Part shown: piece after piece, positions 34,216-59,339 of the stretch
Layout of the letters: each line of letters opens with the position of its first letter
How positions within the stretch are numbered: position 1 is the stretch's first letter
DNA from: Parvularcula marina
Lineage (GTDB): Bacteria; Pseudomonadota; Alphaproteobacteria; Caulobacterales; Parvularculaceae
Length of the DNA stretch: 64,000 nucleotides
Direction of reading: 5' to 3'
Assembly: GCF_003399445.1 (NCBI RefSeq)
Contig: NZ_QUQO01000001.1
Location: forward strand, 2,725,001 to 2,789,000
The notes under the pieces: model-generated
What the model saw: only the letters and a program-made list of their open reading frames with translations
Database searches by the model: none
What the model was told of the DNA's origin: nothing
Program-made: the position numbers and the translations under genes

Positions 34216-35631
34216 ATGAAACATATTTTTGTCATGACGGCCGCAACGGCCTTCGCACTGACCGGCTGTGTCAGTATGGCGCCAGATTATGAGCGTCCCG
34301 ATGCACCGATCGCCTCCTCCCTGCCGGCACAAACTTCAAATGTCGGCGTGGCGGCAGCAGGGCTCGGCTGGCGGCAATTTATTGCCGATCCGGCGCTCGA
34401 GGGGCTGATCGATACAGCGCTTACGAATAATCGTGACCTTCGAGTCGCGATCCTCAATGTGCAGGCGGCGCAAGCACAGTACGGCATCACCCGCTCCCAG
34501 CGCTTCCCCTCTATCGATGCGCAAGGCACGGTGACCGACCGTGGACTGTTTGAGGATGATGGGGCGAGCCAGAACCCCGCCCTTCAGGCGCAGAGCGTTG
34601 ATCAGGCGACGGCGCAACTGGCCGTCACAGCCTATGAGCTTGATCTCTTCGGCCGGGTGACGAGCCTCAACCGGGCCGCGCAGCAGCACTACTTTGCGGC
34701 GGAAGAGAACGCCCGTGCGGCCCAGCTTTCGCTGATCGGCGCGGTGTCGAATGGCTGGCTTGGCCTTGTGACAAACACCCAGCTTCTCGCGCTGGCGCAG
34801 GAAACCGCGAGCAGTCAGGAAGAATCTCTCAACCTCACACGCGCGCGGTTAGAGGCAGGCATTGCAAGCGATCTTGATTATCAGCGTGCGGTCACAAGCG
34901 TTGAGCAAGCGCGGGCCGATACGGCCCGCTATGAGGCGGCTGTCCGCCAGAGCCTCAATGCGCTGGAGCTTCTCGTCGGTGGCCCCTTGCCGGAAGGGAT
35001 CGCTGAGGCTGCGGCGGAAAGTGAGATGTCCGTCCGGCTCGATCTTTATGCCGATCAGTCATCTGACATTCTTCTCTCGCGGCCGGATGTTCAGGCAGCG
35101 GAGAATACGCTTCGGGCAGCGAATGCGGAGATCGGGGCGGCACGCGCGGCTTTCTTCCCGCAGATCAGCCTGACGGGCAGCGCAGGCTATGCCAGCACCG
35201 AGCTCGACAATCTCTTCTCCAGCGCTAATGGCGTTTGGAGTTATGGCCCGCAGGTCTCCCTGCCGATTTTCTCCGGCGGCCAAAACCGCGCCAATCTACG
35301 GCTCGCAAAAACGCAGCGCGAGATCGCTCTTGCCCAATATGAGGGCGCCATCCAGAGCGCCTTCCGCGAGACAGCCGATGCGCTGGCAGTCGCGGACACG
35401 ATTGATGATCAGATTGCCGCGCTTGACCGGCTGGTTGCGGCGAGCGAGCGGGCGCAGTTCCTTTCGGAACAGCGCCTCAAAGACGGGGTTGATAATTACC
35501 TCTCCGTACTCGACGCACAGCGCGCGGTCTATCAAGCGCAGCAGGCCCTTATCTCGGCCCGGCTCGAACGCTCGCGAAATGCGGTTGCGCTCTATCTCGC
35601 TCTTGGTGGCGGGCAGGCGGGTTCAATCTAG
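34216..35631 (+). CDS. Outer-membrane efflux lipoprotein (NodT/OprM family)
   Basis: 471 residues. The lipoprotein signal has a lipobox ending ALTGC at about residue 16, followed by APDYERPDAP, typical of the NodT/OprM group. Two outer-membrane efflux repeats follow (about 60-250 and 270-460), including DLFGRVTSLNRAAQQ and LSRPDVQAAENTLRAANAEIGAARAAFFPQISL-type motifs (given in part). It forms the outer-membrane channel of the efflux pump encoded just upstream. Last gene of the operon; the interrupted tRNA-Arg begins 6 bp later. Confidence 0.94.
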   Translation: MKHIFVMTAATAFALTGCVSMAPDYERPDAPIASSLPAQTSNVGVAAAGLGWRQFIADPALEGLIDTALTNNRDLRVAILNVQAAQAQYGITRSQRFPSIDAQGTVTDRGLFEDDGASQNPALQAQSVDQATAQLAVTAYELDLFGRVTSLNRAAQQHYFAAEENARAAQLSLIGAVSNGWLGLVTNTQLLALAQETASSQEESLNLTRARLEAGIASDLDYQRAVTSVEQARADTARYEAAVRQSLNALELLVGGPLPEGIAEAAAESEMSVRLDLYADQSSDILLSRPDVQAAENTLRAANAEIGAARAAFFPQISLTGSAGYASTELDNLFSSANGVWSYGPQVSLPIFSGGQNRANLRLAKTQREIALAQYEGAIQSAFRETADALAVADTIDDQIAALDRLVAASERAQFLSEQRLKDGVDNYLSVLDAQRAVYQAQQALISARLERSRNAVALYLALGGGQAGSI

Positions 35632-35637
35632 GCTGAC

Positions 35638-35683
35638 TGGTGACCCCGACTGGATTCGAACCAGTGGCCTACAGATTAGGAAT
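35638..35683 (-). pseudogene. 3' part of host tRNA-Arg(CCT), interrupted by the element
   Basis: Reading the minus strand, this holds the anticodon loop and 3' anticodon stem (within the att core), the variable loop, a complete T-arm (ACTGG TTCGAAT CCAGT), acceptor strand CGGGGTC, discriminator A and an encoded CCA. The 5' part is 11 kb away at 46793-46839. The sequence now upstream of this half is element DNA that does not pair with the acceptor strand, so this end cannot make a normal tRNA. Confidence 0.9.
35668..35683. repeat. Attachment core, left copy (attL)
   Basis: CCTACAGATTAGGAAT, identical to 46793-46808. On the tRNA strand it spans the end of the 5' anticodon stem, the anticodon loop and the 3' anticodon stem, the usual crossover site for anticodon-loop tyrosine integrases. 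Confidence 0.92.
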
Positions 35684-35766
35684 ACGCTGTCGGTGCCTAA
35701 CTTGAGCTAATTCACCCCGCAGAAGCTTGAAATCATTTACTTCTGAGGGCCTCCGATATAACTCGA

Positions 35767-35809
35767 GTTACCGTTACAAAGGTTTCTCGGTTTCTCAAGG
35801 GGGTTTCTC
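35767..35809. repeat. Short repeats next to attL: GTTAC pair and three GGTTTCTC copies
   Basis: GTTACC and GTTAC lie back to back at 35767-35777, matching the iteron motif after the primase gene. GGTTTCTC occurs at 35781, 35789 and 35802, the last copy touching the integrase start. GTTTCTCGTG recurs near the other end at 46719-46728. They may be integrase arm-type or excisionase sites (inference). Confidence 0.5.
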
Positions 35810-36907
35810 GTGGCGGTCAAACGGATAACAGAAGCAGTGGCGCGGCAGGCTCAGTTGGGCCAGCCACAGGCGGTGTGGGACACGGAGCTGAAGGGATTCG
35901 GGCTCGTTGTTCGGAAGACCGGCAAGGTCTCGCTCCTTATTCAGAAAAACATCGGTGGCCGGAAGACCCGCCTTTCGCTGGGTCATTGGCCCACGTTGAA
36001 GATCGAAGAGGCTCGTCGGCTGGCTCGCGTCAAGCTGGCTGAGATTGAGTCCGGAGTGGTGGTCAAAGAAGAGCGGCAGGGAATGACGCTCCGCGAGGCC
36101 GCCGAGACACATATACAGGACATGATCAAGGACGCCCGTAGCAGCTACAAGGGGCTCTTGCCGGAGCTAGAGCGGTACATGGCCGACTGGCTGGACCGCC
36201 CGTTGTCGAGGATCTCGGCCGAGGAGGTGAAGCACCGTCACGGCCAGATGAAGGACAAGAAGGCGACAGCGAACCGCGTGTTCCGAATCTTCCGGGCCGT
36301 TTGGAACACCGCGCGCCCGATAGACGATCTGCCCGAATGCCCAACACGCGCGCTGCGCTGGTACTACGTGCCCGGAAAGACGTCGCGCATCGAAGACCTC
36401 GCCGATTGGCACAAGATGGTGGACGGCGTGCGTAATCTCGTTGTTCGCGACTGGCTTCTATTCACGTTGGGCTCGGGGCTCCGGGTCTCTGATGCCTTGT
36501 CCGTGAAGCTTTCGGAGGTGGACTGGGAGGAGGCTGTGCTGACACGCCCTCGGCCCAAGGGGGGCGAGCGCCGAGCTTTTCGCATCCCCATGAGCACGCA
36601 GTTGATGGAGATTTTGGAACGTCGGCGACAATGGGGCGGAGTCTGGGCGTTCCCGTCGTCTCGCAATGACGGTCACCTGACAAACCCCAAGAGATCGATG
36701 ATCGCTGCGGGACTGCCCACGCAAACGCATGACATGCGGCGTACCTACTCGTCTGTGGCGCTGACACTTGGGGTGCCGCAGCCGATAATCTCCATTCTCA
36801 TGAACCACGCGCCGCAGGGCATGACTGCGAGGTATCAGAACCTCACTCCAGAGGAGTTGCGTCCTTGGCAACAGAAGATCAGTGACGCTTTGTTCACGAG
36901 AGGCTGA
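35810..36907 (+). CDS. Tyrosine recombinase integrase
   Basis: 365 residues from GTG at 35810. The N-terminal part (~1-90, VWDTELKGFGLVVRKTGKVS, RKTRLSLGHWPTLKIEEAR) is the DUF4102-type arm-binding domain; residues ~92-170 are a SAM-like core-binding domain. The catalytic domain is complete: R225 (GLRVSD), K250, H307-x-x-R310 (THDMRRTY), H333 (LMNH) and nucleophile Y342 (ARYQNL). It lies 126 bp from attL and points inward. It would integrate and, with a helper, excise the element at tRNA-Arg(CCT). Confidence 0.95.
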   Translation: MAVKRITEAVARQAQLGQPQAVWDTELKGFGLVVRKTGKVSLLIQKNIGGRKTRLSLGHWPTLKIEEARRLARVKLAEIESGVVVKEERQGMTLREAAETHIQDMIKDARSSYKGLLPELERYMADWLDRPLSRISAEEVKHRHGQMKDKKATANRVFRIFRAVWNTARPIDDLPECPTRALRWYYVPGKTSRIEDLADWHKMVDGVRNLVVRDWLLFTLGSGLRVSDALSVKLSEVDWEEAVLTRPRPKGGERRAFRIPMSTQLMEILERRRQWGGVWAFPSSRNDGHLTNPKRSMIAAGLPTQTHDMRRTYSSVALTLGVPQPIISILMNHAPQGMTARYQNLTPEELRPWQQKISDALFTRG

Positions 36908-36914
36908 ATGGTGT

Positions 36915-36942
36915 TTGTTACAGCGAACGCTTGCGTTATAAT
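36915..36942 (+). promoter_or_regulatory. Strong sigma70-like promoter for the xis/primase genes
   Basis: TTGTTA (36915-36920), a 16-base spacer, then a consensus TATAAT (36937-36942). The spacer and the start of the -10 contain the inverted repeat AACGC-tt-GCGTT (36926-36937), a likely operator. A GTTAC iteron-like motif overlaps the -35. The AlpA-like gene starts ~130 bp downstream. Confidence 0.6.
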
Positions 36943-37072
36943 TTGGACACGCATTGCGGTCAGGCCTTCGAAGACACCCACGCACAAGTGAACATCGGCC
37001 TGAAGAGCTGCCAGGGGCCTCCGGCGGGAGGCAGGCGGGTTAAGTCGGATACCCGCGTTCCCGAAAGGTGAG

Positions 37073-37366
37073 ATGCAGCGCCGCCTCTATTTGCCCGATA
37101 TGGGCAGGAGGCGGAGTGTGAGTCTAGAAGACCAAATCCGACAGATGGCCGTGGAAGCCATCGAACAAATCATCCCTGAAACGGTCGCGGTTCGTCAGGA
37201 ATACCTGACGCCCAAACAAGCAGCCGATTATCTCGGCGTTGCTCAGCAGACTATGTATAACTGGCGCTCCCGTCGCGAGGGGCCGCCCGCTCTTCGAATG
37301 GGCGAGCGCTATCTTCGCTATAAGCGTAGCGATCTAGACCAGTGGGTCGCGGGGGGTGGGCGATGA
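37073..37366 (+). CDS. AlpA/excisionase-like helix-turn-helix protein
   Basis: 97 residues. ATG at 37073 follows the ribosome site aaaggtgag. Residues ~42-95 form an HTH_17/MerR-like winged helix: LTPKQAADYLGVAQQTMYNW and then RMGERYLRYKRSDLDQWV. Such proteins act as excisionases or as activators of satellite excision (AlpA of P4-like elements). The stop overlaps the primase start by 4 bp (ATGA), so it is co-translated with the replication gene. The role in excision or induction is inferred. Confidence 0.85.
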   Translation: MQRRLYLPDMGRRRSVSLEDQIRQMAVEAIEQIIPETVAVRQEYLTPKQAADYLGVAQQTMYNWRSRREGPPALRMGERYLRYKRSDLDQWVAGGGR

Positions 37367-39549
37367 GCAGTCCCCGTCGAGCGAGCCACGACCCGACGGA
37401 GACAAGTTCGCATACGGAGGTCCTCACGGACAAGGCGAAGGTAGCTCCGCGCGATTCCGAAGTAAATGAAGCTTGGTCCTTCCTGAGCCGTCTGCGGGCG
37501 GGCGGCCCATGGCTGCTCTGCCGCAAAGAACGAAGTGGTGGACTCAAGGGACATCTCATAAAGAGTCGAGAAAAGCTCGCAGAATGGCTGACCGCATGTC
37601 CCCACGACGACTGGTACGTCACAATCGGCGAACTCCATCGGGAAATCCACAAGAAGCCCAACAAAGAGGACATGGCTGGTGCTCGCTGGCTCTGGGTCGA
37701 CATCGATCCGGTGGGCGAAGAGACGGTCGAAGACATCGTTGCCCGTCTCCTGTCGATGAAGCCGGACATCGTGGTCCGGTCGGGGCGAGGTGCATGGGGG
37801 CTATGGGAACTCGACGCTCTCGGCACGAAAGAAGAGGTCGAGGCGGCCAACCGTGTCCTTATAGGCAAGGCGGGTGGAGATGCTTGCCACAATATCGACC
37901 GCCTTATGCGTCTGCCCGGCTCAATAAACTCGAAGAACGGCCAACGCGCATCTTGGGAAGCGGTTCGCGATCCCGCTCCGCGAAGTCTCGCTGACTTTCC
38001 GAAGCTAGAGGAAGCGAGGTCAGTGGCGCCTGTGGCTGTGGAGACAGACTATCTAAATGTCGATCCCTCCGACATTCACGATCTGGACATCCCACCTAAG
38101 GCAAAGGAGGCGGCACTACAGGCACCGCAAGGTTCCCGCAACGAAGCGGCCAGAACATTCCTCACTTCCTGCGCGGCGGTGGGCGTGCCGGACGAGCTCG
38201 TCCTAGGCATCGCTTTGTCGGGCCTCCCTGTCACCGACTTCTTCGTCCGTGATAAGAACAACGGGCAGCGTTCGGACCCGGTGGCTTTCGCTGCGAAGCA
38301 ACTGGCGAAGGCAAAGGAATGGGTCAAAGCGCGGCGCGCCGATGAGCCAAGCTGGCACGAGACATCTAAGGAGGGGCGACCCTTCGCCAGCTACCGCAAC
38401 GCCCGCGAGGCTCTTGGCCACCTCGATCTCGACATTTGGCACGATGCCTTCAGCGCCGTAGATATGGTGGAGGGGCTCCCAGTGCAGACCTACAACGGAC
38501 CTGTAGGCGACACGGCGCTCGCCGTCTTGCGCGACATGGTGATCGTCCGGCACGGCTTCGATCCGAAGAAGGAGCACCTGCGAGATGCGTTTGCCTCGCT
38601 CGCCATCGAGCATCGGCGAGACCCGATTGTCGACTATCTGGAAGAGCTGACCTGGGATGGGCAGGAGCGGCTCGCAACGTGGATGGTCCGCGCATATGGT
38701 GCGCCGGACACGCCCTATGTGCGGGCGGTAGGTCGTCTAATGCTCCGGGCCATGTGCCGGAGGGCGCGAGAACCGGGGGTCAAGTATGACCACATGGTGA
38801 TCCTCGAAGGGCCGCAAGGCGTTGGCAAATCATTGTCGCTGTCGATACTAGCTAGCGAGCGATTTTCCGATGCGAGCCTATTTACTCGAGACGCCGGGCG
38901 AGATCGCGCAGAACTCCTACAAGGAAACTGGATCAACGAGGTTGCCGAGTTGGAAGGTCTAACCAAGCGAGACATGACCGACGTGAAGGCGTTCATTACC
39001 CAGACAGTCGACGAATACCGTCCCGCCTATGGCTACCACAAGAAACGCTTCCCGAGGCGCGGCATACTTGTAGGCACCACGAACGAGCAGGACTGGAATC
39101 GCGACCCGACTGGCGCAAGACGGTTCCTTCCGGTGTGGTGCGAGAAGGTCGATGTGGAATGGCTGCGTGCGAATCGCGACCAGCTCTTCGCCGAGGCGGA
39201 TGCCGCAGGGGATGGCCCACTGGTCTTGCCAGCAGACGTGATCGGTGACGCACAGACGGAGCAGGCCGCAAGGGCCGAGGCCCATGCGTGGGACGACGTT
39301 CTCGAACGCATGGCGCCGGAGGCACGGTTCGCGGGTACCGACCGGGTCAGCTCTGAGTATGTAATGCGGAAGATTTTGGCGCTTTCTGCGACCGACATGG
39401 CAAGGCGCGAGACACCCCGCACCTTAAGGCGACGGATGAATGAGCTGGGTTGGGATGGGCCGAAGACGGTTGTCCTAGAGGATAGCGAACGCGCGAAGGG
39501 TTATACACGGCCCACGCCGCCAAACGTACAGCAAGAAATACCGTTCTAG
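37363..39549 (+). CDS. Primase-polymerase / VirE-type helicase replication protein
   Basis: 728 residues from the ATG at 37363, chosen because it overlaps the upstream stop as ATGA; the in-frame start at 37342 lies inside the HTH gene. The N-terminal domain has the archaeo-eukaryotic-primase-like metal motif WVDIDP (D113, D115) and NIDRLMRLPGSINSKNG (~177-193), typical of plasmid and phage prim-pols. The C-terminal domain is a virulence-associated-E (PF05272)-like ATPase: Walker A GPQGVGKS at 483-490, WINEVAEL (~523-530) as Walker B, and GTTNEQDWNRDPTGARRFLP downstream. It would prime and unwind at the element's own origin, the role of the P4 alpha protein or PICI primase-helicases. The iteron cluster begins at its stop codon. 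Confidence 0.9.
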   Translation: MSSPRRASHDPTETSSHTEVLTDKAKVAPRDSEVNEAWSFLSRLRAGGPWLLCRKERSGGLKGHLIKSREKLAEWLTACPHDDWYVTIGELHREIHKKPNKEDMAGARWLWVDIDPVGEETVEDIVARLLSMKPDIVVRSGRGAWGLWELDALGTKEEVEAANRVLIGKAGGDACHNIDRLMRLPGSINSKNGQRASWEAVRDPAPRSLADFPKLEEARSVAPVAVETDYLNVDPSDIHDLDIPPKAKEAALQAPQGSRNEAARTFLTSCAAVGVPDELVLGIALSGLPVTDFFVRDKNNGQRSDPVAFAAKQLAKAKEWVKARRADEPSWHETSKEGRPFASYRNAREALGHLDLDIWHDAFSAVDMVEGLPVQTYNGPVGDTALAVLRDMVIVRHGFDPKKEHLRDAFASLAIEHRRDPIVDYLEELTWDGQERLATWMVRAYGAPDTPYVRAVGRLMLRAMCRRAREPGVKYDHMVILEGPQGVGKSLSLSILASERFSDASLFTRDAGRDRAELLQGNWINEVAELEGLTKRDMTDVKAFITQTVDEYRPAYGYHKKRFPRRGILVGTTNEQDWNRDPTGARRFLPVWCEKVDVEWLRANRDQLFAEADAAGDGPLVLPADVIGDAQTEQAARAEAHAWDDVLERMAPEARFAGTDRVSSEYVMRKILALSATDMARRETPRTLRRRMNELGWDGPKTVVLEDSERAKGYTRPTPPNVQQEIPF

Positions 39550-39734
39550 TAACCCCATCGTAACTGCTCGGTAACCGGAGGATTACGTCTTAAGTTCCCG
39601 CAAACACTACAGGTAACCGTAGTAACCCTAGGAACAGGGAAAATCTCGGAAGGAGGAGTGGGGCGAGGCTGGCGCTGCTGTGGGCGGAATTCCAGAACAA
39701 TGATTTTAAGCGGTTACTCCGGTTACCGGTTACC
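39549..39734. repeat. GTAAC/GGTAACC iteron cluster, candidate replication origin
   Basis: GTAAC-type motifs in forward orientation lie at 39549, 39560, 39570 (GGTAACC), 39612 (GGTAACC) and 39622. In inverse orientation GGTTACT lies at 39712 and GGTTACC at 39721 and 39728, the last two touching. The two arrays face each other across ~85 bp. Repeats right after a primase-helicase gene are the arrangement of phage and satellite origins (P4 type). The rest of the 316-bp gap (39550-39865) shows no supported gene. Confidence 0.65.
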
Positions 39735-39865
39735 TTCTCACGATCTCGTTTTGCTCGGGTATGAAATCCGAAGACGAGTTATCGTTGCGGAGATTCGGCG
39801 GATTGCTCCCGGCAAAAAGGCCAGCAGCTTTTTAGGCTCCTGTCCGATATCGGAACTCTCCGCCA

Positions 39866-40360
39866 TTGCAGTCACTTGCGAGGCCGACATTGCGACGGGA
39901 AACCGAGGCGAAACCTGAGACTCCGAAATCAGCGGATGATGTGGTTGTGCGGAACGAAGGCGGCCACACGCGGCGCGTCGGCGCGCGCGGCGTCTCTGTG
40001 GTCGAGGACATGGCGAGGAATGGCTGTTCAGAAACCAGCATTGCCAAGAAGCTTCGCGTCGCAACGAGCACCTTCCGTGAGATAAAGAGACGTCAACCGG
40101 AAGTCTTGGAAGCGCTGGAGCGTGGCTATAGCGCGATGGAGGACGAGCTTGTCGACCTCCTCATGAGACGCGCGCGCGACCCGAGTCACAAGGGCGGCGT
40201 GACCGCAGCCATCTTTCTGCTCAAGGCGCGACGTGGCTACGAGGGAACGAAGACGCCAGCTCACATCACCATCAACAACGACAATCGTCAGCAGACGATG
40301 TTGCTGCCATCAGCGGATGAGATGGATGTCTACCTAAGCCGCGCGAGGGAGATGGCATGA
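39866..40360 (+). CDS. Terminase small-subunit-like HTH protein
   Basis: Up to 164 residues from TTG at 39866; the true start is uncertain and may be a GTG further in. Residues ~45-75 (VVEDMARNGCSETSIAKKLR, STFREIKRR) are a helix-turn-helix, followed by a helical region (LEALERGYSAMEDELVDLLM, AAIFLLKARRGYEG) as in phage small terminases. It sits two genes before the large terminase, as TerS usually does. It would recognise the packaging site and set which DNA is packaged. The assignment rests on architecture and position. Confidence 0.65.
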   Translation: MQSLARPTLRRETEAKPETPKSADDVVVRNEGGHTRRVGARGVSVVEDMARNGCSETSIAKKLRVATSTFREIKRRQPEVLEALERGYSAMEDELVDLLMRRARDPSHKGGVTAAIFLLKARRGYEGTKTPAHITINNDNRQQTMLLPSADEMDVYLSRAREMA

Positions 40361-40467
40361 AGACCTCTCACCCCTTTCGGGACAAGGTCGTCCGGCTGCG
40401 GTGGATCACCCTGTACCTCCGCCGCCAGGCGAAACGTCGAGAAGCAAAGAAGAAGGAGCAGGTCTAA
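40357..40467 (+). CDS. 36-residue basic peptide, coupled on both sides
   Basis: ATG at 40357 overlaps the stop of the TerS-like gene (ATGA), and the stop TAA at 40465-40467 is followed at once by the ATG of the large terminase. The product begins MKTSHPFRDKVVRLRWITLY and is very basic, ending KKKEQV. It exactly fills the gap, and the fit at both ends argues that it is translated. It may be only a ribosome-relay peptide or a DNA-binding packaging cofactor; the function is unknown. Confidence 0.6.
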   Translation: MKTSHPFRDKVVRLRWITLYLRRQAKRREAKKKEQV

Positions 40468-41859
40468 ATGGCTCAGATGTCACCCTTCCAGCTCTCGGTA
40501 TTAAAGACGCCAGAGACCGCCAATCTGGCTCTCTTGGGCGCGAGGGGCGGAGGAAAGACTACAGCCGCCGTCCTGTTGGCGCTGCGTCACGTGCAGCAGT
40601 ACGGCGAGGACGCAAGTGTTCTAATTGTCCGCCGCACCTTCCGCTCTCTTTCTCAGTTCGAGGATGAGATGTTGTCCCTCTTGGGTGCTGTGAGTGGCGG
40701 AGCGCACAGCTTCAACCGAGCCGAGCACATTGCACGATTCAATGGAGCGACCATCGAGCTGTCCGCCATAGAGGATCAGCGCGGATATGACCGCCTTCAG
40801 GGCAAGAGCTACACCCTCATCATCGTCGACGAGGTCACTCAGTACCCGTCTGAGAGACTGCTGCGCCTGCTGCGGTCCAACCTGCGCGGGCCCGGCCACG
40901 TGCCCACGCGCGTGGTCTACTGTGGCAACCCCGGCGGCCCCCTTCATGGGCGAATCTACGAACGCCATGTCAGGGGACGCCGAAGCCATGTCCCATACGA
41001 ACTCGAGCTGGCTGACAGCGACGAGACGGAGACATGGATCACGATCAATTCTGGTCCGGCTGACAACCCCTTCATCGACACGCAGGCATACATTCGTCGT
41101 CTGCGCGAGGCCTGCCACGGCGACCCAGTGAGACTGCAACAATGGCTCTTCGGATCTTGGGAGCAGGGCTCCGGCCTAATGTGGCCCATGTTTGACTCAT
41201 CCGTCCACGTTATATCATGGGACGCTCCCGTGGACCCGGACCAGTTCGTGCCCCGTGTGGGCATTGACTTCGGCCTCTCCGCGCCGTCCTGCGCCCATCT
41301 CGGCATCCGCGCCAAGCGTGACCTGACCTTCCCCGATGGGAGGAGGCTGCCCCGTGACAGCGTCATCGTCGTTGACGAGGTGTCCGACGTCATCTGGCAG
41401 GACGACAACCTCAACACCTCCTCGGAGTGGGGCCCTGATCGTCTAGCAGAGAGGGTCGCCTCGATGTGTGCCAATCATGGTGTTCATCGTCCCTCTGGCG
41501 TGGTCGACAATTACAGGGGCATTCAGGGTGACGATGTCATCAACGTCATGCGCCAGACAGGGCAGTTCTGGAACTTGACTCTGCCCAAGAAGGGCCGCCG
41601 CGCGGAGCGCTGGGCGCTCATGGGCTCGATGTTGACCGCCGCCACCGAGCAGAACCCAAGTCGTCCGCATCTCTTCGTCAGCGAGCGCTGCAAATTTCTC
41701 ATTCACGCCATAGGCAACTCGGTCCGGGATGAGAAGGACCCGGACGACGTGGCCGACACGCCTCATTGCCCGGATCACCCGTTAGATTCGTGCACGTACA
41801 TGCTGGCCGAGCAACGCGTGCAACGTGTCACATCCAGCCGACTGGTCGGCGTCTACTGA
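40468..41859 (+). CDS. Phage terminase large subunit (TerL)
   Basis: 463 residues, a normal TerL length. The N-terminal packaging ATPase has Walker A GARGGGKT (24-31) and Walker B LIIVDE (117-122), with GNPGGP as a coupling-type motif (~153-158). The C-terminal RNase H-fold nuclease has the first acidic residue in VGIDFG (D267), more acidic residues in VVDEVSD (~300) and SGVVDNYRG (~345), and ends CTYMLAEQRVQRV. The protein looks intact. It would pump element DNA into a procapsid, but no portal or capsid is encoded here, so a helper phage would have to supply it. Annotated as family-certain, role inferred. Confidence 0.92.
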   Translation: MAQMSPFQLSVLKTPETANLALLGARGGGKTTAAVLLALRHVQQYGEDASVLIVRRTFRSLSQFEDEMLSLLGAVSGGAHSFNRAEHIARFNGATIELSAIEDQRGYDRLQGKSYTLIIVDEVTQYPSERLLRLLRSNLRGPGHVPTRVVYCGNPGGPLHGRIYERHVRGRRSHVPYELELADSDETETWITINSGPADNPFIDTQAYIRRLREACHGDPVRLQQWLFGSWEQGSGLMWPMFDSSVHVISWDAPVDPDQFVPRVGIDFGLSAPSCAHLGIRAKRDLTFPDGRRLPRDSVIVVDEVSDVIWQDDNLNTSSEWGPDRLAERVASMCANHGVHRPSGVVDNYRGIQGDDVINVMRQTGQFWNLTLPKKGRRAERWALMGSMLTAATEQNPSRPHLFVSERCKFLIHAIGNSVRDEKDPDDVADTPHCPDHPLDSCTYMLAEQRVQRVTSSRLVGVY

Positions 41860-41870
41860 GGAAAACTGAT

Positions 41871-42554
41871 ATGACAACCATCGACGATGTATTGCGAAAC
41901 CGTCCACGAGCGAGACAACCGTATCCGGACCCGGCACGACAGGCTGCCATGCGCGCCCGACGCTTGGACCCCCCGCCCATCGACTTCAATGTGCGAGGCG
42001 AGAGCATGGCCGCTATGTCCGCCCGCCACGGACTTGAGACTCTCTTGGGCGCGTGGCGTCAGATCAGCGAGTTGGCTTGCAATCCGCACACGCCGCTGCG
42101 AGAACTTGGCGAGCGAGGCTGGAACGCCATGCAGCGGGGCCTCGCCGCGACTGATCGGGCACGGAACACCGTGGAGGCGAACATCAAGGCACTGGACAAG
42201 ACCATCGCTGAGAAGACCATGCCTCCCATTTCAGATGCAATGGCCGGGGAGCTTCGTTCTCTGGTCCGACAGGACCCCTCGCGTGCATTCGACCTCGTGC
42301 GGGAAGACGTGCGCTTCTCATCAGCGCTATTGCGCGCACCGGCGGCGCTGTCCGGCCTAAGGCCCGACCAGCACGACAAGGTGCGAGAAATGGCAGAGCT
42401 TACTCACGCTCCCCGCGAGGTCGCCTTGCGCGGGGAGGCGACCGCCGCTCGCGAGGTGCTGGACAAGGCGGGGGAGCGGGCCATGGGTGTCGTCGCGGCC
42501 AAGCTGAGCGAGTGGCAGGAGGCCACGCCCGACATGGGGGCGCTCGATGGGTGA
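41871..42554 (+). CDS. Unknown helical protein following TerL
   Basis: 227 residues from the ATG at 41871, preceded by gagg. The open frame extends upstream into TerL without a ribosome site. The sequence is Ala/Arg/Glu-rich and predicted mostly helical, with a long helix around ~65-115 (LETLLGAWRQISELA, ANIKALDKTIAEKT). There is no signal peptide, membrane segment or recognised motif. By position after TerL it could replace or modify a portal or head component, or be a packaging accessory. It is too short for a portal and I do not recognise it. Confidence 0.7.
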   Translation: MTTIDDVLRNRPRARQPYPDPARQAAMRARRLDPPPIDFNVRGESMAAMSARHGLETLLGAWRQISELACNPHTPLRELGERGWNAMQRGLAATDRARNTVEANIKALDKTIAEKTMPPISDAMAGELRSLVRQDPSRAFDLVREDVRFSSALLRAPAALSGLRPDQHDKVREMAELTHAPREVALRGEATAAREVLDKAGERAMGVVAAKLSEWQEATPDMGALDG

Positions 42555-42717
42555 CCGCGGACCGAGCCGCCCGCCTGTGACACGCGGAGAAGGGCCGGAT
42601 CGTGGCTTTCGAACATCTACAGTCACCGAGTTGCGCGAACGTGAGCAGCGCGAGGCGGTCAAGGCATTACAAGAGAAGTATTTGAGCGATGGGTCGTTTC
42701 AACACCGAAATTCCTGA
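42547..42717 (+). CDS. Small unknown protein (56 aa), overlapping both neighbours
   Basis: ATG at 42547 lies 8 bp inside the end of the 227-residue gene, and its stop at 42717 lies 29 bp inside the next gene. The product starts MGDRGPSRPPVTRGEGPDRG and then has a charged helix (TVTELREREQREAVKALQEK). The nested arrangement is typical of phage small genes. Coding status is plausible, not certain. Confidence 0.5.
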   Translation: MGDRGPSRPPVTRGEGPDRGFRTSTVTELREREQREAVKALQEKYLSDGSFQHRNS

Positions 42718-43000
42718 TGTGCTCATCGCTCAGGCAATGCACCATCTCAGCCACGAGCAGCTCGCGGTGATCCGGGGCTTGGCGCGGGCGCAAATCGAGA
42801 CGGGACGGCGGTTCTCGCAGCCTTCGATCCGAGCGTTCTGCGACGAGCACGGGATTCCGGGAGACCCTGTGCTACGCGCACTTGGCTGGGGGCCGGGAGA
42901 CCACGACATGGTCCTTGGTCGCATCACCAGTGTCGTGGAGGACATGGCCTGCACCTCCGGGGCGGCACTGTGCGCGTTGGCGAAGTGTTCGGACTGCTGA
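42689..43000 (+). CDS. Unknown small protein (103 aa)
   Basis: ATG at 42689, starting inside the 56-residue ORF. It is an all-helical, soluble-looking sequence (VLIAQAMHHLSHEQLAVIRG, RRFSQPSIRAFCDEHGIPGD) ending with three cysteines near the C-terminus (ALCALAKCSDC). A compact HTH-like fold in ~40-70 is possible. No family recognised. It ends the coupled gene series that starts at the AlpA-like gene. Confidence 0.6.
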   Translation: MGRFNTEIPDVLIAQAMHHLSHEQLAVIRGLARAQIETGRRFSQPSIRAFCDEHGIPGDPVLRALGWGPGDHDMVLGRITSVVEDMACTSGAALCALAKCSDC

Positions 43001-43243
43001 CGACGTAGAACTCTCGCTGACGCGACCACGCTCGATGGGTGGCGCGTGCCTCTTCTCTTGCTCATACCAGACTCATACGCCGACCCTGCCGCAGAGCGCT
43101 AACGTCCGTTTACCGATCTTTTGGGTTTACTTCTGGCTCGGGTTCGCCCTATGAAAGGTTCATGTTTTGTTCTGTTTCAATCCCATTCCTCGTCAGCGCG
43201 TGCGCCGTGCTCGACTATCACGGGCCAGAAATGGAGACCCAGT

Positions 43244-43498
43244 ATGCCCACAACGTCCAAGTCGAAGACCTCCGCCCGCCGGGCGAGGCAGGAAGAGCCG
43301 TCCTTGCGGCTCTGCGTGAGCGAGAATCCGAAGAAGCCCGGCTCCGCTGCCCATGCGCGCTTCGCAGCCATGATGACCGCCGCGACCGATGGCGTCGTCT
43401 CAATCGAGGCGGCCCTGTCTGCGGGCTACACCCGCGCCGACCTCGCCCATGACAGGGGCAAAGGATTCATCGCACTCAAAACGCGAATCAGTGAGTGA
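43244..43498 (+). CDS. Unknown small protein (84 aa)
   Basis: The ATG at 43244 is favoured over in-frame starts further upstream (43121, 43151) because ggagaccc precedes it and the upstream part looks non-coding. The N-terminus is Lys/Arg/Ser-rich (MPTTSKSKTSARRARQEEPS). The C-terminal half is better conserved-looking: SAAHARFAAMMTAATDGVVS and EAALSAGYTRADLAHDRGKG, probably an HTH-like fold. Separated from the packaging genes by ~240 bp without a supported gene. Function unknown. Confidence 0.55.
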   Translation: MPTTSKSKTSARRARQEEPSLRLCVSENPKKPGSAAHARFAAMMTAATDGVVSIEAALSAGYTRADLAHDRGKGFIALKTRISE

Positions 43499-43563
43499 GT
43501 TTTTTATGATGGGATTGGTACGTACCCTCAAAGAATCGCATTGCATCCGAGAATCGCTTAAAC

Positions 43564-43588
43564 GCATCCTTCTTACCCTTAAGGATGC
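43564..43588 (+). promoter_or_regulatory. Inverted repeat just before the restriction endonuclease start
   Basis: GCATCCTT (43564-43571) and AAGGATGC (43581-43588) are perfect 8-bp arms around a 9-base spacer. The repeat ends 6 bases before the ATG at 43595, so it covers the ribosome-binding area. It could be an operator or an RNA hairpin that limits endonuclease expression. Confidence 0.5.
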
Positions 43589-43594
43589 AGTTAG

Positions 43595-44326
43595 ATGGGC
43601 GAACTTGCCGCTTCCATGGATCAAATCATAATCCCGCGGCAGGAATTGTCAGATTGGGGTACCGCATGGCTGGGCACTGTTAACGCGACTAATGGGAAAA
43701 CTAAGTCGGCAAGCGCGTTTGATCGCCAACAATCAGTAAACTTCGCAAGTTTTATTGACATGGAGGTCGGAAAAGCGCTCGCTAAATTCCTTGGTGGAAT
43801 CAACGTGGTTACGCCTCATCCTTACGCTTTGCTTCCACCCGAACCTGACTGTGTCGAAGTAGGGCCCGCGCGCATAATCGGGGGCATCCGGCCGCAGAAC
43901 TTTGATGTTGCGTATCGACCCGATGGGCCGCGTATCGTTTTCGATAGCAAGTCGCTCAATGATCAAAAGTCCATCGGTAAGAACTGGCAGAACATGGTCA
44001 ACGACCTCGGCACAGAAGCCGCAACTGTTCACACAAGATTCCCGTACGCGATTGTTGCGTTTATGGTGGTTCTACCCAAGCCGGCAGTAGCAAAGAAACA
44101 AGAAGCAGACCTGGTTCGCACTCTAGAACGACTGGGAAATCGCAAAGATGTGCTCGATCAAGCTCATCTTGCTGAGGCACTTTCGCTGATACTTTGGGAT
44201 CCCCAAACTGGTGATGTTTGTCCGGATTCGCCTCCGCAGAACTCTTCACTGAGACTCGAAAACTTCTCTAGAGCTTTGGCACCCCACTACATTGATAGAT
44301 ACAAAGGGCTTCCGCCCCACGAGTAG
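43595..44326 (+). CDS. Probable type II restriction endonuclease (PD-(D/E)XK-like)
   Basis: 243 residues; ATG at 43595, with ATG at 43616 an alternative. A PD-(D/E)XK-type core is visible: D104 in NFDVAYRPDG, a beta-strand, then D117-S-K119 in RIVFDSKSLND. QNMVNDLGTEA follows, as in restriction endonucleases that protect themselves through a partner methylase. The gene is 3 bp upstream of an N6-adenine methyltransferase, which gives the functional assignment. AT-richer and with more AGA/AGG/TTT-type codons than the host genes around, so it was probably acquired separately. The recognition site is unknown. Confidence 0.75.
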   Translation: MGELAASMDQIIIPRQELSDWGTAWLGTVNATNGKTKSASAFDRQQSVNFASFIDMEVGKALAKFLGGINVVTPHPYALLPPEPDCVEVGPARIIGGIRPQNFDVAYRPDGPRIVFDSKSLNDQKSIGKNWQNMVNDLGTEAATVHTRFPYAIVAFMVVLPKPAVAKKQEADLVRTLERLGNRKDVLDQAHLAEALSLILWDPQTGDVCPDSPPQNSSLRLENFSRALAPHYIDRYKGLPPHE

Positions 44327-44329
44327 AAT

Positions 44330-46003
44330 ATGCAAAGACCAATATTTAAGAATAAACCTGTTGCAGATGAGAAAAAACTTCGGGGGGGATACTACACTCC
44401 TGTTGAGTTGGCGGAGTACCTAACTGCTTGGGCAATTAGAACAGGTGCTGAATCTATCCTTGAGCCGTCGTGTGGCGACGGAAATTTTTTGGTCGCTGCA
44501 CTGAGTAGACTCAATCAATTGTACGGCGCGGAACCCAAGCAGTCGCCACATTTGGTTGCTGTAGAAGTTCTTGAATCGGAAATTGAAAGAGCGCAGTCCC
44601 GCTGTTCTGCTCAAGTTTTCCCTGGTCTGACGACTGAATGGATATGTGACGACTTTTTCGCTTCGTACGGGGATCAACTAAAGCACTCCTCTTTTGATGT
44701 GATCATCGGCAATCCGCCGTTTATTCGGTTTCAATACTTTGACCCAGAGGTGCGCGATATTGCATTCAACCATCTCAGGGACGCATCCTATCGTCCAACA
44801 AAATTGGCGAATGCCTGGGCGGCCTTCGTTCAACTGTCGGTCGAGCTGCTGAAACCCGGTGGACGTTTGGCGATGGTAGTGCCAGCAGAACTGCTTCAAG
44901 TGGGTTACGCCTCCGAATTACGCGACCGACTTTCTAGGGGCTTCGAAGACATCGGGCTGATCGGGTTTCGGCAGCTAGTTTTTCCACAGATCCAACAGGA
45001 AGTAGTTTTATTGCTTGCCGAGGGAAAAACAGAGAGGCCGAATAATTCTGCCAGAATACACACAGTGGAATACATCAACGGGCAAGATCTTCCGAGTAAA
45101 CACGACTTCTTGGATGCTGTGCAGCATGCGCCAGAAAAATACACACGCTCCGGCATGAAATGGACGTCCTTGTTTCTAGATGACAGAGAATTTGATGCAC
45201 TGAGTGCAGCACAAAGTCACAATGGACTTGTCTCCTTAGGAGATCTAGCGCGTGTCGAAGTGGGTGTTGTCACGGGCCGAAATAGTTTCTTCGTGCTCGA
45301 TCAAGAATCTGTGAAATCAGCAAAAGCAGCCAGGTTTGTAACGAAAGTGGTTGGTAGAACGAACGCCTTGAGATCGATTGAGTTTTCCGCAGATGACTTC
45401 GGTCAGTATGCGGCACGTTCGCCAGCATATTTATTGGACTTGAGCAGGGTTACAGACAAGAAGTTCACGAAGGGGCTTCAAGAATACATTCAGGCTGGTG
45501 AAGATGCAGGAGTAAACACTGGTTACAAGTGCCGGATTAGAAAGCGTTGGTATGATGTGCCGTCCATCTATGTTCCAGATGGATTTATGTTTCGTCAAAT
45601 ACATCAGTTCCCTCTGTTGGTATCGAATGAAGCTGGTGCCACATCGACTGACACGATTCACAGGGTGCGAATAAAAGGCGATACTGACATTAAGCAGCTA
45701 GCATTTCGCGCATTCAATTCCCTCACCTTTGCTTGGTCAGAGGTGTGTGGCCGTAGCTATGGCGGCGGAGTTCTGGAACTTGAACCTCGTGAGGCGCAGG
45801 AACTTCCCATCCCCGATGTCGAGATAGATCAACAGGATGTACGAAAGCTCGACAATATGTTGCGAAATGCGCGCATCACCGAGGCGTTGGATTTCGCCGA
45901 TGAAGTCCTTCTGCGCAGAGGGTTGGGCTTTGGCGTTGCCGACGTCAAGCTGCTAAGAAGCAGTTGGGAGACGCTCCGTGATCGTCGTATCGGTCGGAGA
46001 TGA
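44330..46003 (+). CDS. N6-adenine DNA methyltransferase (M.TaqI/Eco57I-like class)
   Basis: 557 residues. Motif X is GGYYTP (19-24), SAM-binding motif I is [12 protein letters not shown] (43-54), and catalytic motif IV is NPPF (128-131, in [12 protein letters not shown]). The C-terminal half (~260-530) should be the target-recognition domain, ending with [17 protein letters not shown] as in type I/IIG-like enzymes. It would methylate adenine in the partner endonuclease site. The class gamma order (X-I-IV-TRD) matches M.TaqI. The 3-bp spacing after the endonuclease and the shared low GC show one cassette. A solitary orphan methylase is unlikely. Confidence 0.9.
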
Positions 46004-46007
46004 GCGA

Positions 46008-46084
46008 TGGCGACCCCGGCGCGATTCGAACGCGCGACCTCCGGATTAGGAATCCGATGCTCTATCCTGCTGAGCTACGGGGTC
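46008..46084 (-). tRNA. tRNA-Arg(CCT), complete copy carried by the element
   Basis: 77 nt on the minus strand. Acceptor GACCCCG pairs perfectly with CGGGGTC; the D-arm is GCTC/GAGC; anticodon stem TCGGA/TCCGG holds loop TTCCTAA with anticodon CCT (46048-46050); T-arm GCGCG-TTCGAAT-CGCGC; discriminator G and encoded CCA. It has the same anticodon as the host gene that the element splits, but differs in the anticodon and T stems, so it is not a simple duplicate. It lies ~710 bp inside attR and most likely restores AGG decoding. Confidence 0.95.
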
Positions 46085-46095
46085 TCAGTTGATGA

Positions 46096-46137
46096 ATAGC
46101 CTGTCGCGTGCGAAGAGACAAACCTAGGGCAGGCTAT
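46096..46137. promoter_or_regulatory. Inverted repeat between the tRNA and the orphan gene
   Basis: ATAGCCTG (46096-46103) and CAGGCTAT (46130-46137) are perfect 8-bp arms separated by 26 bases. The right arm is 13 bases before the GTG of the next gene. It lies between the divergent tRNA and the orphan gene and may be an operator for either. Confidence 0.35.
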
Positions 46138-46150
46138 CGGGGAGGGAGTC

Positions 46151-46729
46151 GTGGACCATGAATTCAACTATACCGTCGATACGAGAGCTGAGTACCGTCC
46201 CTATCTCCCGCAAACCTACAAGGAACCTTTCAGAGTCGCTCAAGGCGAGGCGTTTGCCTTCCTGATCGACGAGCCAGTCCGCTTATCGAATGGCAACGAG
46301 TTTGTATATTCGTACTCAATGAAGCGCGAGCGTCGCCGGGCGTTCTCGACTTGGCACCGGACCTGGCCCTTTCGTCGTCAGAAACATCTATCCAAGGTAG
46401 GGAAAGCAACCGGCGATCCTCTTCGAGAAGTTCGAAATCAGTTCGCTCGAACGGTCGACGATGATAACGAAGAGATGATCACTCGGCGTGTTCCGGAATA
46501 TCCTCAGATCGACATGGTGGTATTTGTCGATGACGCGTATGACTGCGAGCAGGCCTTTCATAGCTCAATTCGATCATTTCAGTACCTGGGCGGCGCTGGA
46601 TATGAGTTCTTTGACACCAACGGCGATGAGCTTCTGCGCTTCTGCAAGATTTGGATGAAGAACCGTCAGCGTGCGAAGCGCATTGCGCGCAAGGGCGAGG
46701 AGCTGGCTGCTCGTCGAAGTTTCTCGTGA
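46151..46729 (+). CDS. Orphan gene at the right end of the element (192 aa)
   Basis: GTG at 46151 follows a strong ggaggga ribosome site. The product is soluble, with no signal or membrane segment; the middle is rich in Arg/Lys (MKRERRRAFSTWHRTWPFRR) and the C-terminus is a basic helix (KNRQRAKRIARKGEELAARR). PQIDMVVFVDDAYDCEQAF is the only hydrophobic core strand I notice. No family recognised. Its place between the replacement tRNA and attR is typical of satellite cargo (anti-phage or toxin genes), but nothing in the sequence shows that. Confidence 0.7.
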   Translation: MDHEFNYTVDTRAEYRPYLPQTYKEPFRVAQGEAFAFLIDEPVRLSNGNEFVYSYSMKRERRRAFSTWHRTWPFRRQKHLSKVGKATGDPLREVRNQFARTVDDDNEEMITRRVPEYPQIDMVVFVDDAYDCEQAFHSSIRSFQYLGGAGYEFFDTNGDELLRFCKIWMKNRQRAKRIARKGEELAARRSFS

Positions 46730-46792
46730 GTTTCCCGTGCCTACCAGCGTGTCGCTGAACTCGCTGTATATGCTGGCTTTTTGCCCTCGCGA

Positions 46793-46808
46793 CCTACAGA
46801 TTAGGAAT
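46793..46808. repeat. Attachment core, right copy (attR)
   Basis: CCTACAGATTAGGAAT, identical to 35668-35683. To its left is element DNA (gccctcgcga), to its right the 5' part of the host tRNA gene. Confidence 0.92.
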
Positions 46809-46839
46809 CTGTTGCTCTATCCTGCTGAGCTACGGGGCC
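46793..46839 (-). pseudogene. 5' part of host tRNA-Arg(CCT), interrupted by the element
   Basis: On the minus strand: acceptor GGCCCCG, D-arm GCTC-AGCAGGATA-GAGC, anticodon stem ACAGA, loop TTCCTAA and stem TCTGT. Joined with 35638-35667 it gives a 77-nt tRNA whose acceptor stem pairs fully (one G-U), with T-arm and CCA. In its present place transcription would run from the tRNA into element DNA (AGGTCGCGAGGG), which resembles only the start of a T-arm. Confidence 0.9.
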
Positions 46840-46908: not shown

Positions 46909-47661
46909 TTAGAAGAACCGCTCCGGCACGAAGATGACATCGCCATCCTGCACGGCGGCCTCCAGATCACCGACCGAGCGTTCCTGCCCGCCGCGATAGA
47001 GCTTGAGGCCGCGTTCTGAGCCTGCATTGCTCGGGCCACCGCCAAATGCCAGCGCCTGACGCAGGGTCATTTTCTCGGTGATCGCATAGCTGCCCGGTGA
47101 CTGGACCTGCCCATAGATAAAGAAACGCCGCGGGGCGGGGACATGGATCACATCACCCGGCTGCACGACCGGATCGGCGACGCCGGACGCGACGTCAGAC
47201 ATGCTCAGCGTCCGGACGGCTTCACCGGGGCGGCGCAGGACAACGATTTCGTGCCCGGCGCGGACGCCGCCTGCCTTGGCAAGAAGACGCGACAATGGCT
47301 CTGGCCCGATGATCGGTTGCAGGCCCGGCTTTTCGACCGCGCCAAGAACGGTTGCCGCCTTGCTCTGATAGGAGAGCACTTCGACATTGACGATCGGGTC
47401 TTTCAGATACCCGCCGGCCTTCATCTTCTGGGCAACGCGCTCGGCAAATTGCAGTGGCGACTGGCCATCGGCCTCGACCGCGCCAATCAGCGGCAGGGTC
47501 ACCGTGCCGCGCTCGGTCACGCGAAGGGCAAGCGGCTCTTCGGTCTGGCCATAGATCATGACCTCGATCTGGTCATTCGGGCCCAGCTCATAGCCTTGGG
47601 TCTGCGCCTGCGCGGCGCTGCCGAGGAATAGGGCGAGGGCGGAAAGAAGGAACGTTCTCAT
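46909..47661 (-). CDS. Polysaccharide export protein (Wza/GumB-like)
   Basis: 250 residues with a cleavable signal (~1-20, ends AQAQ) and no lipobox cysteine. Poly_export domain (~22-100, GYELGPNDQIEVMIYGQTEE) and SLBB domains (~105-160 and ~180-240; AATVLGAVEKPGLQPI, FFIYGQVQSPGSYAI). It forms the periplasmic/outer-membrane exit path for the exopolysaccharide. The ATG overlaps the stop of the upstream gene by 4 bp, and it is the last gene of the minus-strand EPS operon. Absence of the lipid anchor is like the shorter export proteins that pair with a separate outer-membrane barrel, here the upstream gene. Confidence 0.92.
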   Translation of the reverse strand: MRTFLLSALALFLGSAAQAQTQGYELGPNDQIEVMIYGQTEEPLALRVTERGTVTLPLIGAVEADGQSPLQFAERVAQKMKAGGYLKDPIVNVEVLSYQSKAATVLGAVEKPGLQPIIGPEPLSRLLAKAGGVRAGHEIVVLRRPGEAVRTLSMSDVASGVADPVVQPGDVIHVPAPRRFFIYGQVQSPGSYAITEKMTLRQALAFGGGPSNAGSERGLKLYRGGQERSVGDLEAAVQDGDVIFVPERFF

Positions 47662-48839: not shown

Positions 48840-48968
48840 GAGCTTCTGGCCTTCCTTGAGAGAGAGTGCTCCGCAAGGCACATGCCAGAAAACGGCTGGT
48901 TTCGCCAATCGGTCTTGTTGAAGGCCGCGTTGCGCCGCCGCCGCTAGGAGACGGGCACGCATGACATC

Positions 48969-49685: not shown

Positions 49686-49897
49686 ACTAAATTCTCCCCC
49701 CAGCCTAACCGAAACGCAACTGACACGCCGGACTGGCCGACGCTCTCCCAGATAATTCGTTACCATGGGGTGTTCCCCTCAGCAAGCTTACTCTTCTGAT
49801 TTATCTAGCAATTGTCGGGCCAAGAGTGCCGCCGAATGTGGGAAATTCACCCCAAATAGGTGCATTACAAGGGGAACCTGCCTTGCCAGAGGAAGTG

Positions 49898-50779: not shown

Positions 50780-50861
50780 TGGTGACTTTCATCATAGCAG
50801 GGTGTGACCCGGAAATCCGGTCTATTTGGATGGAGCTGAGTGAATGTCCACAAACCATAGG

Positions 50862-51869: not shown

Positions 51870-51912
51870 GATGCTCCGTTCCCGTCTCTTTGCTCACTTG
51901 GTGGTGAAAGGC

Positions 51913-56562: not shown

Positions 56563-56572
56563 AAGGAAGAGA

Positions 56573-57968: not shown

Positions 57969-59339
57969 ATGGTCCTCAAAGTTGCTATTATCGGTCGCCC
58001 CAATGTGGGCAAATCCACGCTGTTCAACCGCCTTGCGGGCAAGAAGCTCGCGCTGGTCGATGACCAGCCGGGGGTGACGCGCGACCGCCGCGAATATGAC
58101 ATCAAATTCGGCGATCTCGACATCCGCCTGATCGACACGGCGGGGCTCGAGAACGCCTCTGACGGCTCGCTTCAGGCGCGGATGCGCGAGGGCACCGAAA
58201 AAGCCATCGCGCTCGCCGATGTCACGCTTTTCCTCGTCGATGCGCGATCCGGCCTCACCTCGCATGACGAAGAGCTGGCCGAGATGCTGCGCCGCGCAGG
58301 CCGGCCGGTTGTTCTTGTGGCGAACAAGACAGAGGGCCGCGGTGAAGCCGGCGCTTACGAGGCCTATAATCTCGGGCTCGGCGATCCCGTCGCGATCTCC
58401 GCCGAGCATGGCGAGGGCATGGCCGACCTTTATCAGGCGATCCGCGCCCATGTCCCCGAAGACGGGATGGACGACGAGGAAGATGCCGAGACCCTTGAAT
58501 GGGACGATCCGCTAAAACCCTTGCGGCTCGCCATTGTCGGGCGCCCCAATGCGGGCAAGTCGACCCTTGTGAACCGCCTTCTTGACGAAGACCGTGTACT
58601 GACGGGGCCGGAAGCAGGCATTACTCGTGATACGATTTCGGTCGAATGGTCATGGGAGGGATCAGAGCGCTCCTGGCCGGTCAAACTCTTTGACACCGCC
58701 GGGCTTCGCAAGCGTGCCAAGGTGCAGGACCGCTTGGAGAAAATGTCGACCGGCGACACGATCCGCGCCATCCAGTTCGCCGAGGTCGTGGCCGTCATCA
58801 TCGATGCGACCATGCCGTTTGAGAAACAGGATCTTCAGATTGCGGATCTTGCCGCGCGCGAAGGGCGCGGTGTCGTCATCGTCGCGAACAAGTGGGACCT
58901 GATCGAGGACAAGGACGAAACCGCAAAGGCGTTGCGCGAAGCGGCTGCGCGTCTATTGCCGCAGATCCCGAATGTGCCCGTCATCCTGATGTCCGCGCTG
59001 ACGGGGCGGGGGATCGACCGGCTGATGCCATGGGTCACGCGCGTCTATCGCGACTGGAACGCGAAGGTGAAAACCTCCGACCTCAACAAATGGCTGGAGG
59101 CGGCAACCCAGAAACACCCGCCGCCCGCTGTCGGCGGCCGCCGTATCAAGATCCGCTATATCACGCAGGTGAATACGCGTCCCCCCACCTTCATGGCACA
59201 TTGTCAGCGGGCAGATCACCTACCTGACAGCTATAAGCGATATCTCGTCAACGGTATCCGCGAGAGCTTCAGCATCGAAGCTGTCCCGATCCGCCTGTTC
59301 CTCCGTAAGGGAACCAACCCCTATGAGGGGAAGAAGTAG
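57969..59339 (+). CDS. der: Ribosome-assembly GTPase Der (EngA)
   Basis: 456 residues with two tandem GTPase domains, unique to Der. First: GRPNVGKST (G1), DTAGLE (G3), NKTEG (G4). Second, ~170-350: [24 protein letters not shown]. The C-terminal KH-like domain ends [16 protein letters not shown]. It acts in 50S subunit maturation. Housekeeping gene not related to the EPS genes upstream. Confidence 0.97.

Follow-up and report, generated by a model that had tools for sequence, protein, structure and literature searches.

How can a bacterium live with a mobile element that cuts its only gene for a transfer RNA (tRNA)? This question is raised by a 64,000-nucleotide stretch of the Parvularcula marina genome (assembly GCF_003399445.1, contig NZ_QUQO01000001.1, positions 2,725,001 to 2,789,000; hereafter the window), in which a first-pass annotation, made from the letters alone, had proposed that an element between positions 35638 and 46839 splits the host tRNA-Arg(CCT) gene and supplies a full-length tRNA of matching anticodon. 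The reading that we favor, with a probability of about 85%, is that a satellite-like element split the sole tRNA-Arg(CCT) gene of the host and that its own tRNA replaces it, a case of the logic of tRNA-dependent lysogeny at work in something other than a complete phage. What had been proposed about the break, the lack of a rebuilt gene and the supply of a complete tRNA held up in our analysis, which found no other intact CCT gene; the accompanying idea of an addiction-like hold on the host was not supported in the form stated.

The split gene, its junctions and its locus

Joined end to end, the two host segments bordering the element (Table 1) yield 77 nucleotides that ARAGORN calls as tRNA-Arg(cct), with fully paired acceptor, D, anticodon and T stems (one G-U pair in the acceptor) and an encoded CCA, exactly as first annotated. 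The 16-bp core CCTACAGATTAGGAAT is present without mismatch at both ends, and the unit inserted between its two copies measures 11,125 bp, in keeping with the annotated interruption of about 11.1 kb at the anticodon loop. When each host half was taken together with the adjoining element flank, ARAGORN found no tRNA gene at either the left or the right junction. The right-hand remnant (46782-46839) lacks, by inspection, both the T-arm and the 3' acceptor strand, and the right arm of the element keeps of the tRNA only TCTGTAGGTCGCG; likeness to a tRNA stops 13 bases past the anticodon loop at one junction of the window, and the complementary host half lies at the opposite end of the integrase-bearing unit. 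Read from its junctions, the insertion is an integrase-type split at the anticodon loop with the gene rebuilt at neither end, in line with the claim that the host gene stays broken.

An ordinary tRNA-targeting island would instead carry a tRNA half (3', more rarely 5') in its attachment site, attP, and with it restore the gene at one of the junctions. Rebuilding is the usual rule, as exemplified by the Islander collection with 3760 islands holding a 3' fragment and 159 holding a 5' fragment (PMC4383910), and a review of archaeal integrases likewise describes an intact tRNA gene as reconstituted after integration, with bacteria keeping the original promoter with very few exceptions (PMC8371274). 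Some viral contigs resemble carriers of a 5' half: in one of 38.7 kb (IMGVR_UViG_3300034760_000018; L332 and L333), the same tRNA-Arg(CCT) 5' half and its downstream sequence occur twice, as if the attP carried this half. Such an island in the window is contradicted by the absence of a called tRNA at both junctions and by the short tRNA remnant in the right arm; a decayed tRNA 5' half in the left arm, where the motif TAGCTCA is present, was considered and rejected, its likeness not being significant (anchored p 0.16; local p 0.11). We regard a rebuilding island as very improbable here and, on the junction sequences, as already refuted, short of either junction expressing a rebuilt tRNA.

Relatives lacking the element had been expected to show an intact tRNA at the oprM/wza junction. 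No such empty site was found in nine genus relatives, in which the flanking genes were neither within about 1.5 kb of the CCT gene nor in the 9-14 kb around it; in some of them der, which encodes the EngA GTPase, was near the tRNA instead. No identical empty site having been seen, the locus is supported by this der neighborhood. In three of the nine (G002, G007, G008), the start of der and the intact tRNA-Arg(CCT) are about 85-112 bp apart, on opposite strands, and a fourth (G004) has the two in this order at a distance of 6.1 kb, these four der genes being 71-79% identical to that of the window; the linkage is absent in the other five within the stretches seen. The window der keeps the order and strands of the relatives with respect to the split tRNA, with polysaccharide export and other genes intervening. 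The split gene likely sits at its native locus.

Two further observations concern these relatives and this interval. The cluster between der and the split tRNA (46909-57930) has a Wza-type polysaccharide export gene at its left end, and G004 has about 6 kb between the same two genes, so that the gap may be an insertion hot spot. The tRNA-Arg(CCT) of two relatives (G005, G009; L148, L150) is only 75 nt per ARAGORN, ending in 3' ACG with no encoded CCA, vs. 77 nt in the other seven.

The replacement tRNA and the cost of integration

Over the whole window ARAGORN called one tRNA only, the tRNA-Arg(cct) carried by the element. Its sequence departs from that of the joined host tRNA in 13 of 77 positions, bearing out the earlier description of a shared anticodon on different stems, and its identity to phage records is no more than 90%; among 64 distinct CCT tRNAs (379 loci), those nearest to the joined host gene differ from it at 4 positions. 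A search of the genome (3.4 Mb, 99.54% complete) gave 43 tRNA matches, one of them the broken host half itself, and ARAGORN on the loci covering these matches left that of the element as the only intact CCT gene; the other arginine tRNAs have the anticodons CCG, ACG and TCT (the last at L024). A match at C2:347202-347266 was not called by ARAGORN and has the anticodon loop CTCATAA, hence not CCT. It adjoins a tRNA-Ser(tga) of only 75 nt (L048 127-267; G000:C2:347126-347266), and this odd pair is possibly of mobile origin. As for copy number across the order, 238 of 300 genomes (at least 98% completeness requested) match a pattern for an intact CCT gene, none with two by reading of the table, and each of 18 comparison genomes has exactly one.

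We postulate that these features fit together as follows: 1) the tyrosine integrase of the element would insert the 11.1-kb unit at the anticodon loop of the single tRNA-Arg(CCT) gene; 2) because the attachment site shares only 16 bp with this gene, neither junction would rebuild it; 3) the tRNA-Arg(CCT) of the element, 0.7 kb inside its right end, would take over decoding of AGG codons; and 4) a clean excision at the core would bring the two host halves back together exactly.

The first-pass annotation had drawn from the sole intact CCT gene the further conclusion that the element holds its host hostage, with its loss removing AGG decoding, and two genomes described below (G018, G176), retaining a foreign-looking tRNA with no integrase seen nearby, would be in keeping with this addiction. 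However, clean excision would restore the host gene, so that only unclean deletions, those taking the tRNA while the halves stay apart, would be penalized. The tRNA-Arg(TCT) of the genome could read AGG by wobble, and AGG is rare, at 1.35 per 1000 codons, in 20 host open reading frames (ORFs) of the window. We therefore consider addiction in the form stated unlikely. Since clean excision rejoins the gene, the tRNA of the element spares the host the cost of integration and does not hinder loss of the element.

A different role for this tRNA, mainly in translation of the element's own genes or against tRNA-cutting defenses, with its match to the split gene being incidental, draws on codon usage, as AGG reaches 9.4 per 1000 codons in 10 element ORFs vs. 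the above value for the host, the frames on both sides being chosen by the analyst rather than curated genes. Yet the anticodon is that of the broken gene, and the same pairing recurs in four other genomes (G018, G031, G176, G201) with differing neighbors as far as sampled; moreover, such a role leaves unexplained why the only host copy can stay broken. As the main explanation we find it quite unlikely. The two roles are nonetheless compatible, and with AGG being commoner in element than in host ORFs, a tRNA that replaces the host copy may also serve genes of the element.

Broken halves and foreign tRNAs in other genomes

To describe recurrence of the split, we relied on a search pattern describing CCT 5' halves that are preserved as far as the anticodon loop but lack T54, which by design misses at least a quarter of broken halves and, by demanding an intact loop, partly builds in any argument about the breakpoint. 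It matched 5 of 398 genomes of the order (that of the window, G000, together with G031, G043, G176 and G201), an earlier and stricter version having matched 4 of 398; with two found separately (G018, G117), there are seven broken CCT halves in all. In five of the seven, a single intact CCT gene, unlike the broken half in sequence, lies downstream on the same strand, at a start-to-start distance of 126 bp in G201, 166 bp in G018, 702 bp in G176, 755 bp in the window and 25.1 kb in G031. Native flanks adjoin the broken half in G018, G031, G201 and G043, and in G176 native sequence resumes about 0.4 kb past the foreign-looking tRNA. Neighboring genes differ among G018, G031, G176 and G201, as far as these were sampled.

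The individual cases vary in what is left of the carrier. G201, though it belongs to another family, has a replacement tRNA that matches that of the window element at every position (77/77 nt); 46.8 kb separate the host 3' half of this genome from its 5' half, and ten ORFs sampled there comprise nine with metabolic, transport or transposase functions and one without a match. At the start of the G031 unit is a protein with the N-terminal domain of an integrase; the unit also encodes type I restriction, ArdC and a type IV coupling protein, has a foreign-looking tRNA-Arg(CCT) aboard, and closes at the host 3' half, 25 kb from the 5' half. Between this foreign tRNA and the host 3' half lies an additional tRNA 3' half, with a repeat of the end sequence after it, suggesting that the replacement tRNA was itself split by a second element. 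In G018, five ORFs sampled past the tRNA are metabolic or transport genes and the contig has no PF00589 match; in G176, one of three sampled ORFs encodes an Mrr-like nuclease and no integrase was found nearby, by a weak test (tblastn with three integrases). Since both genomes keep half and foreign tRNA with no integrase found close by, it seems that such a tRNA can persist after its element is gone, these two sites being likely scars.

Taken further, breaking and replacing a single-copy tRNA might be a general strategy of many integrative elements and a one-way ratchet, in which the tRNA of a decayed element becomes that of the host and is later split again, turnover of CCT genes in the order being largely driven by elements. 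We offer this extension tentatively, at somewhat less than even odds.

Viral contigs gave possible further cases. Among 45 viral loci with a broken half, three (L233, L251, and L308 at 75-294) have, in addition, an intact CCT gene no more than about 250 bp off on the other strand; these were left out of the recurrence count, as the half could be host or attP. The locus L329 also has an intact CCT gene and was rejected, the pattern having matched that very gene. In 14 whole viral records searched for tRNAs, six were over the Rfam cut-off, with none among the eight with a broken half.

A number of observations pull against the reading that the element split, and functionally replaced, a single host gene. 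At the junctions, the right-hand remnant scores 31.1 bits with the Rfam tRNA model, just over the cut-off of 29, and the joined 77-mer has no exact match in any of the 379 loci, hence no identical empty site; at the locus, the tRNA and der stand 11 kb apart, with a polysaccharide export gene at the left end of the interval. Whether the CCT tRNA is essential is qualified by the TCT tRNA, the presence of which may make the sole CCT gene dispensable, and by one genus (g11) in which 47 of 54 genomes searched have no CCT match, out of 62 misses in all; counted by eye and limited by the pattern, these misses may reflect either loss or divergence. Single copy is also not without exception, as G051 (95% complete, about 280 contigs; L145, L158) has two CCT genes per ARAGORN, one of them with mispairing in both its acceptor and its T stem; an integrase lies downstream of this one, at about 1 kb. 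Among the seven broken halves, G043 and G117 have half and intact gene on different contigs and for this reason stand apart from the five; in G043 the half has a native flank and the intact gene has none. The half in G176 is the weakest case, forming with the bases that follow a 93-nt tRNA-Arg(cct) with a poor T-arm per ARAGORN that is not called by Rfam, and decay of a copy, with no split, could also account for it. Lastly, a scan for sigma-70-like promoters, of a kind that suits few phyla, turned up none around the replacement tRNA, and the transcription and charging of this tRNA, like continued excision of the element, are predictions from sequence.

The carrier and its relation to known systems

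From the left end, the element encodes an integrase, an excisionase-like protein, a primase-helicase, terminases, several unknown proteins, a methylase, the tRNA and a further unknown protein (Table 1). Ten of its ORFs were scanned with Pfam, NCBIfam, PHROGs and PADLOC at 1e-3, and nine (five of them new) were scanned with PHROGs at E up to 1, giving two weak matches, both of unknown function.

Table 1. Features of the split tRNA-Arg(CCT) gene, the inserted element and the likely native neighbor, in window coordinates
Feature	Coordinates	Strand	Evidence or remark
Host tRNA-Arg(CCT) 3' half with CCA	35638..35667	-	joins with 46793-46839
Core repeat, left copy (CCTACAGATTAGGAAT): anticodon loop, 3' anticodon stem, part of variable loop	35668..35683		exact repeat of 46793-46808
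Tyrosine integrase, 365 aa	35810..36907	+	PF00589 8.5e-11; Arm-DNA-bind_3 2.5e-08; phrog_1 integrase 4.9e-36
Excisionase-like helix-turn-helix protein	37073..37366	+	HTH_17 2.1e-14; TIGR01764 excise over cut-off
VapE-like primase-helicase	37342..39549	+	PF05272 6e-62; phrog_256 DNA helicase 1.7e-78
Terminase small subunit-like	39866..40360	+	phrog_309 4.3e-15
Terminase large subunit	40468..41859	+	PF03237 1e-13; phrog_2 6.6e-28, residues 4-453 of 463
243-aa protein without family match	43595..44326	+	none at 1e-3 (Pfam, NCBIfam, PHROGs, PADLOC); none in PHROGs at E up to 1
M.Eco57I-like N6-adenine DNA methylase	44330..46003	+	PF22837 1.8e-30; PADLOC MTase_II 2.5e-166
Replacement tRNA-Arg(CCT), sole intact CCT gene found in genome	46008..46084	-	ARAGORN; Rfam 67.7 bits; genome-wide count
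192-aa protein between replacement tRNA and right end	46151..46729	+	no family at 1e-3; PHROG match only at E 0.16
Host tRNA-Arg(CCT) 5' half including right core copy 46793-46808	46793..46839	-	joins with 35638-35667
der (EngA) GTPase	57969..59339	+	Pfam EngA KH domain; marks likely native locus

No capsid, portal or tail family was found by PHROGs in 15 plus-strand ORFs, a scan with the minus strand and some short or nested plus-strand frames outside it. Within these 15 ORFs, the element has the gene set of a satellite (small size, integrase, replication and packaging genes, no structural genes), and with packaging genes and no recognized structural gene it looks like a phage satellite, one that a helper phage presumably packages. 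It resembles the phage satellites known as PICI, PICMI, VEIME and tycheposon, which are small and have integrase, primase and terminase with no structural set (PMC11389934, PMC10872708, PMC10803314, PMC10690885), but it has a large terminase and, being likened to them by its genes, is assigned to no named family. The adenine methylase had no recognized restriction partner among the ten ORFs scanned with Pfam, NCBIfam and PADLOC, and may be an orphan.

Searches by integrase gave no close sister of the element among the 398 relatives, named genomes and viral contigs. Homologues at 1e-20 occur in 34 of 398 order relatives, including the window's own genome, with 36% as the best identity otherwise; over most of the protein, the best identity was 33% in named genomes, where higher values were short segments, and 31% in viral contigs. 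The primase and large terminase have only distant relatives in viral contigs and phages, and the whole element matched phages at its tRNA end only, over 45 bases in one record.

The closest known system is tRNA-dependent lysogeny, a system of actinobacteriophages (Fionnbharth, LeBron, Gaia) proved with phage mutants in mycobacteriophages (PMC10865867), with which the window element shares a tyrosine integrase, an attB in a tRNA gene, no rebuild and a carried cognate tRNA. The core common to attB and attP is 8-17 bp among phages marked tRNA-dependent in Table 2 of that paper, Omega apart, vs. 16 bp here, and no tRNA was called by ARAGORN at attL or attR of the element. Those carriers are complete temperate phages of Actinobacteria with Lys, Ile2 or Leu tRNAs and a requirement shown by mutants, whereas the window has a satellite-like element with tRNA-Arg(CCT), described here from sequence. 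The carrier not being a temperate phage, we describe the element as working like tRNA-dependent lysogeny and do not class it as a lysogenic phage.

Prophages have offered similar cases. In two Sinorhizobium strains, Lo5R7ANS-like prophages of S. meliloti inactivate tRNA-Leu(UAG) and supply a foreign-looking one (PMC11476347), which differs from the window in carrier and tRNA, and the pertinent passages of that report describe no scars outliving the element; a further paper cites this case and reports none in another prophage group (PMC12429752). The Lactobacillus johnsonii prophage Lj965, cited in PMC10865867, also leaves its tRNA gene unrebuilt and holds a cognate tRNA, again with a prophage as carrier and in another bacterium. 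Canonical tRNA islands of Islander share the tyrosine integrase and the anticodon-loop crossover (their sublocation A), but rebuild the tRNA from the attP half, as the window element does not (PMC4383910), and tRNA fragments left behind by such insertions have been treated elsewhere (PMC9897764).

The mechanism is known; what differs here is the satellite-like carrier, the tRNA and the recurrence. Among the papers listed, by title and abstract opening, in mostly non-subscription literature, our search found no report of satellites or conjugative elements that break and replace a tRNA. The origin of the system and its frequency beyond actinobacteriophages were raised as questions in PMC10865867, and the present cases extend a mechanism recently demonstrated in phages to two other carriers, one satellite-like and one of conjugative type (G031). 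A broken half beside a foreign cognate tRNA is a signature that can be searched for, and a genomic tRNA gene may be a replacement from a mobile element, which affects tRNA phylogeny as well as island-finding programs that expect a rebuilt gene.

Elsewhere in the window, an ORF of 5372 codons (11199-27317, plus strand) lies upstream of a series of genes, the last of which encodes an outer membrane efflux protein (34216-35631).

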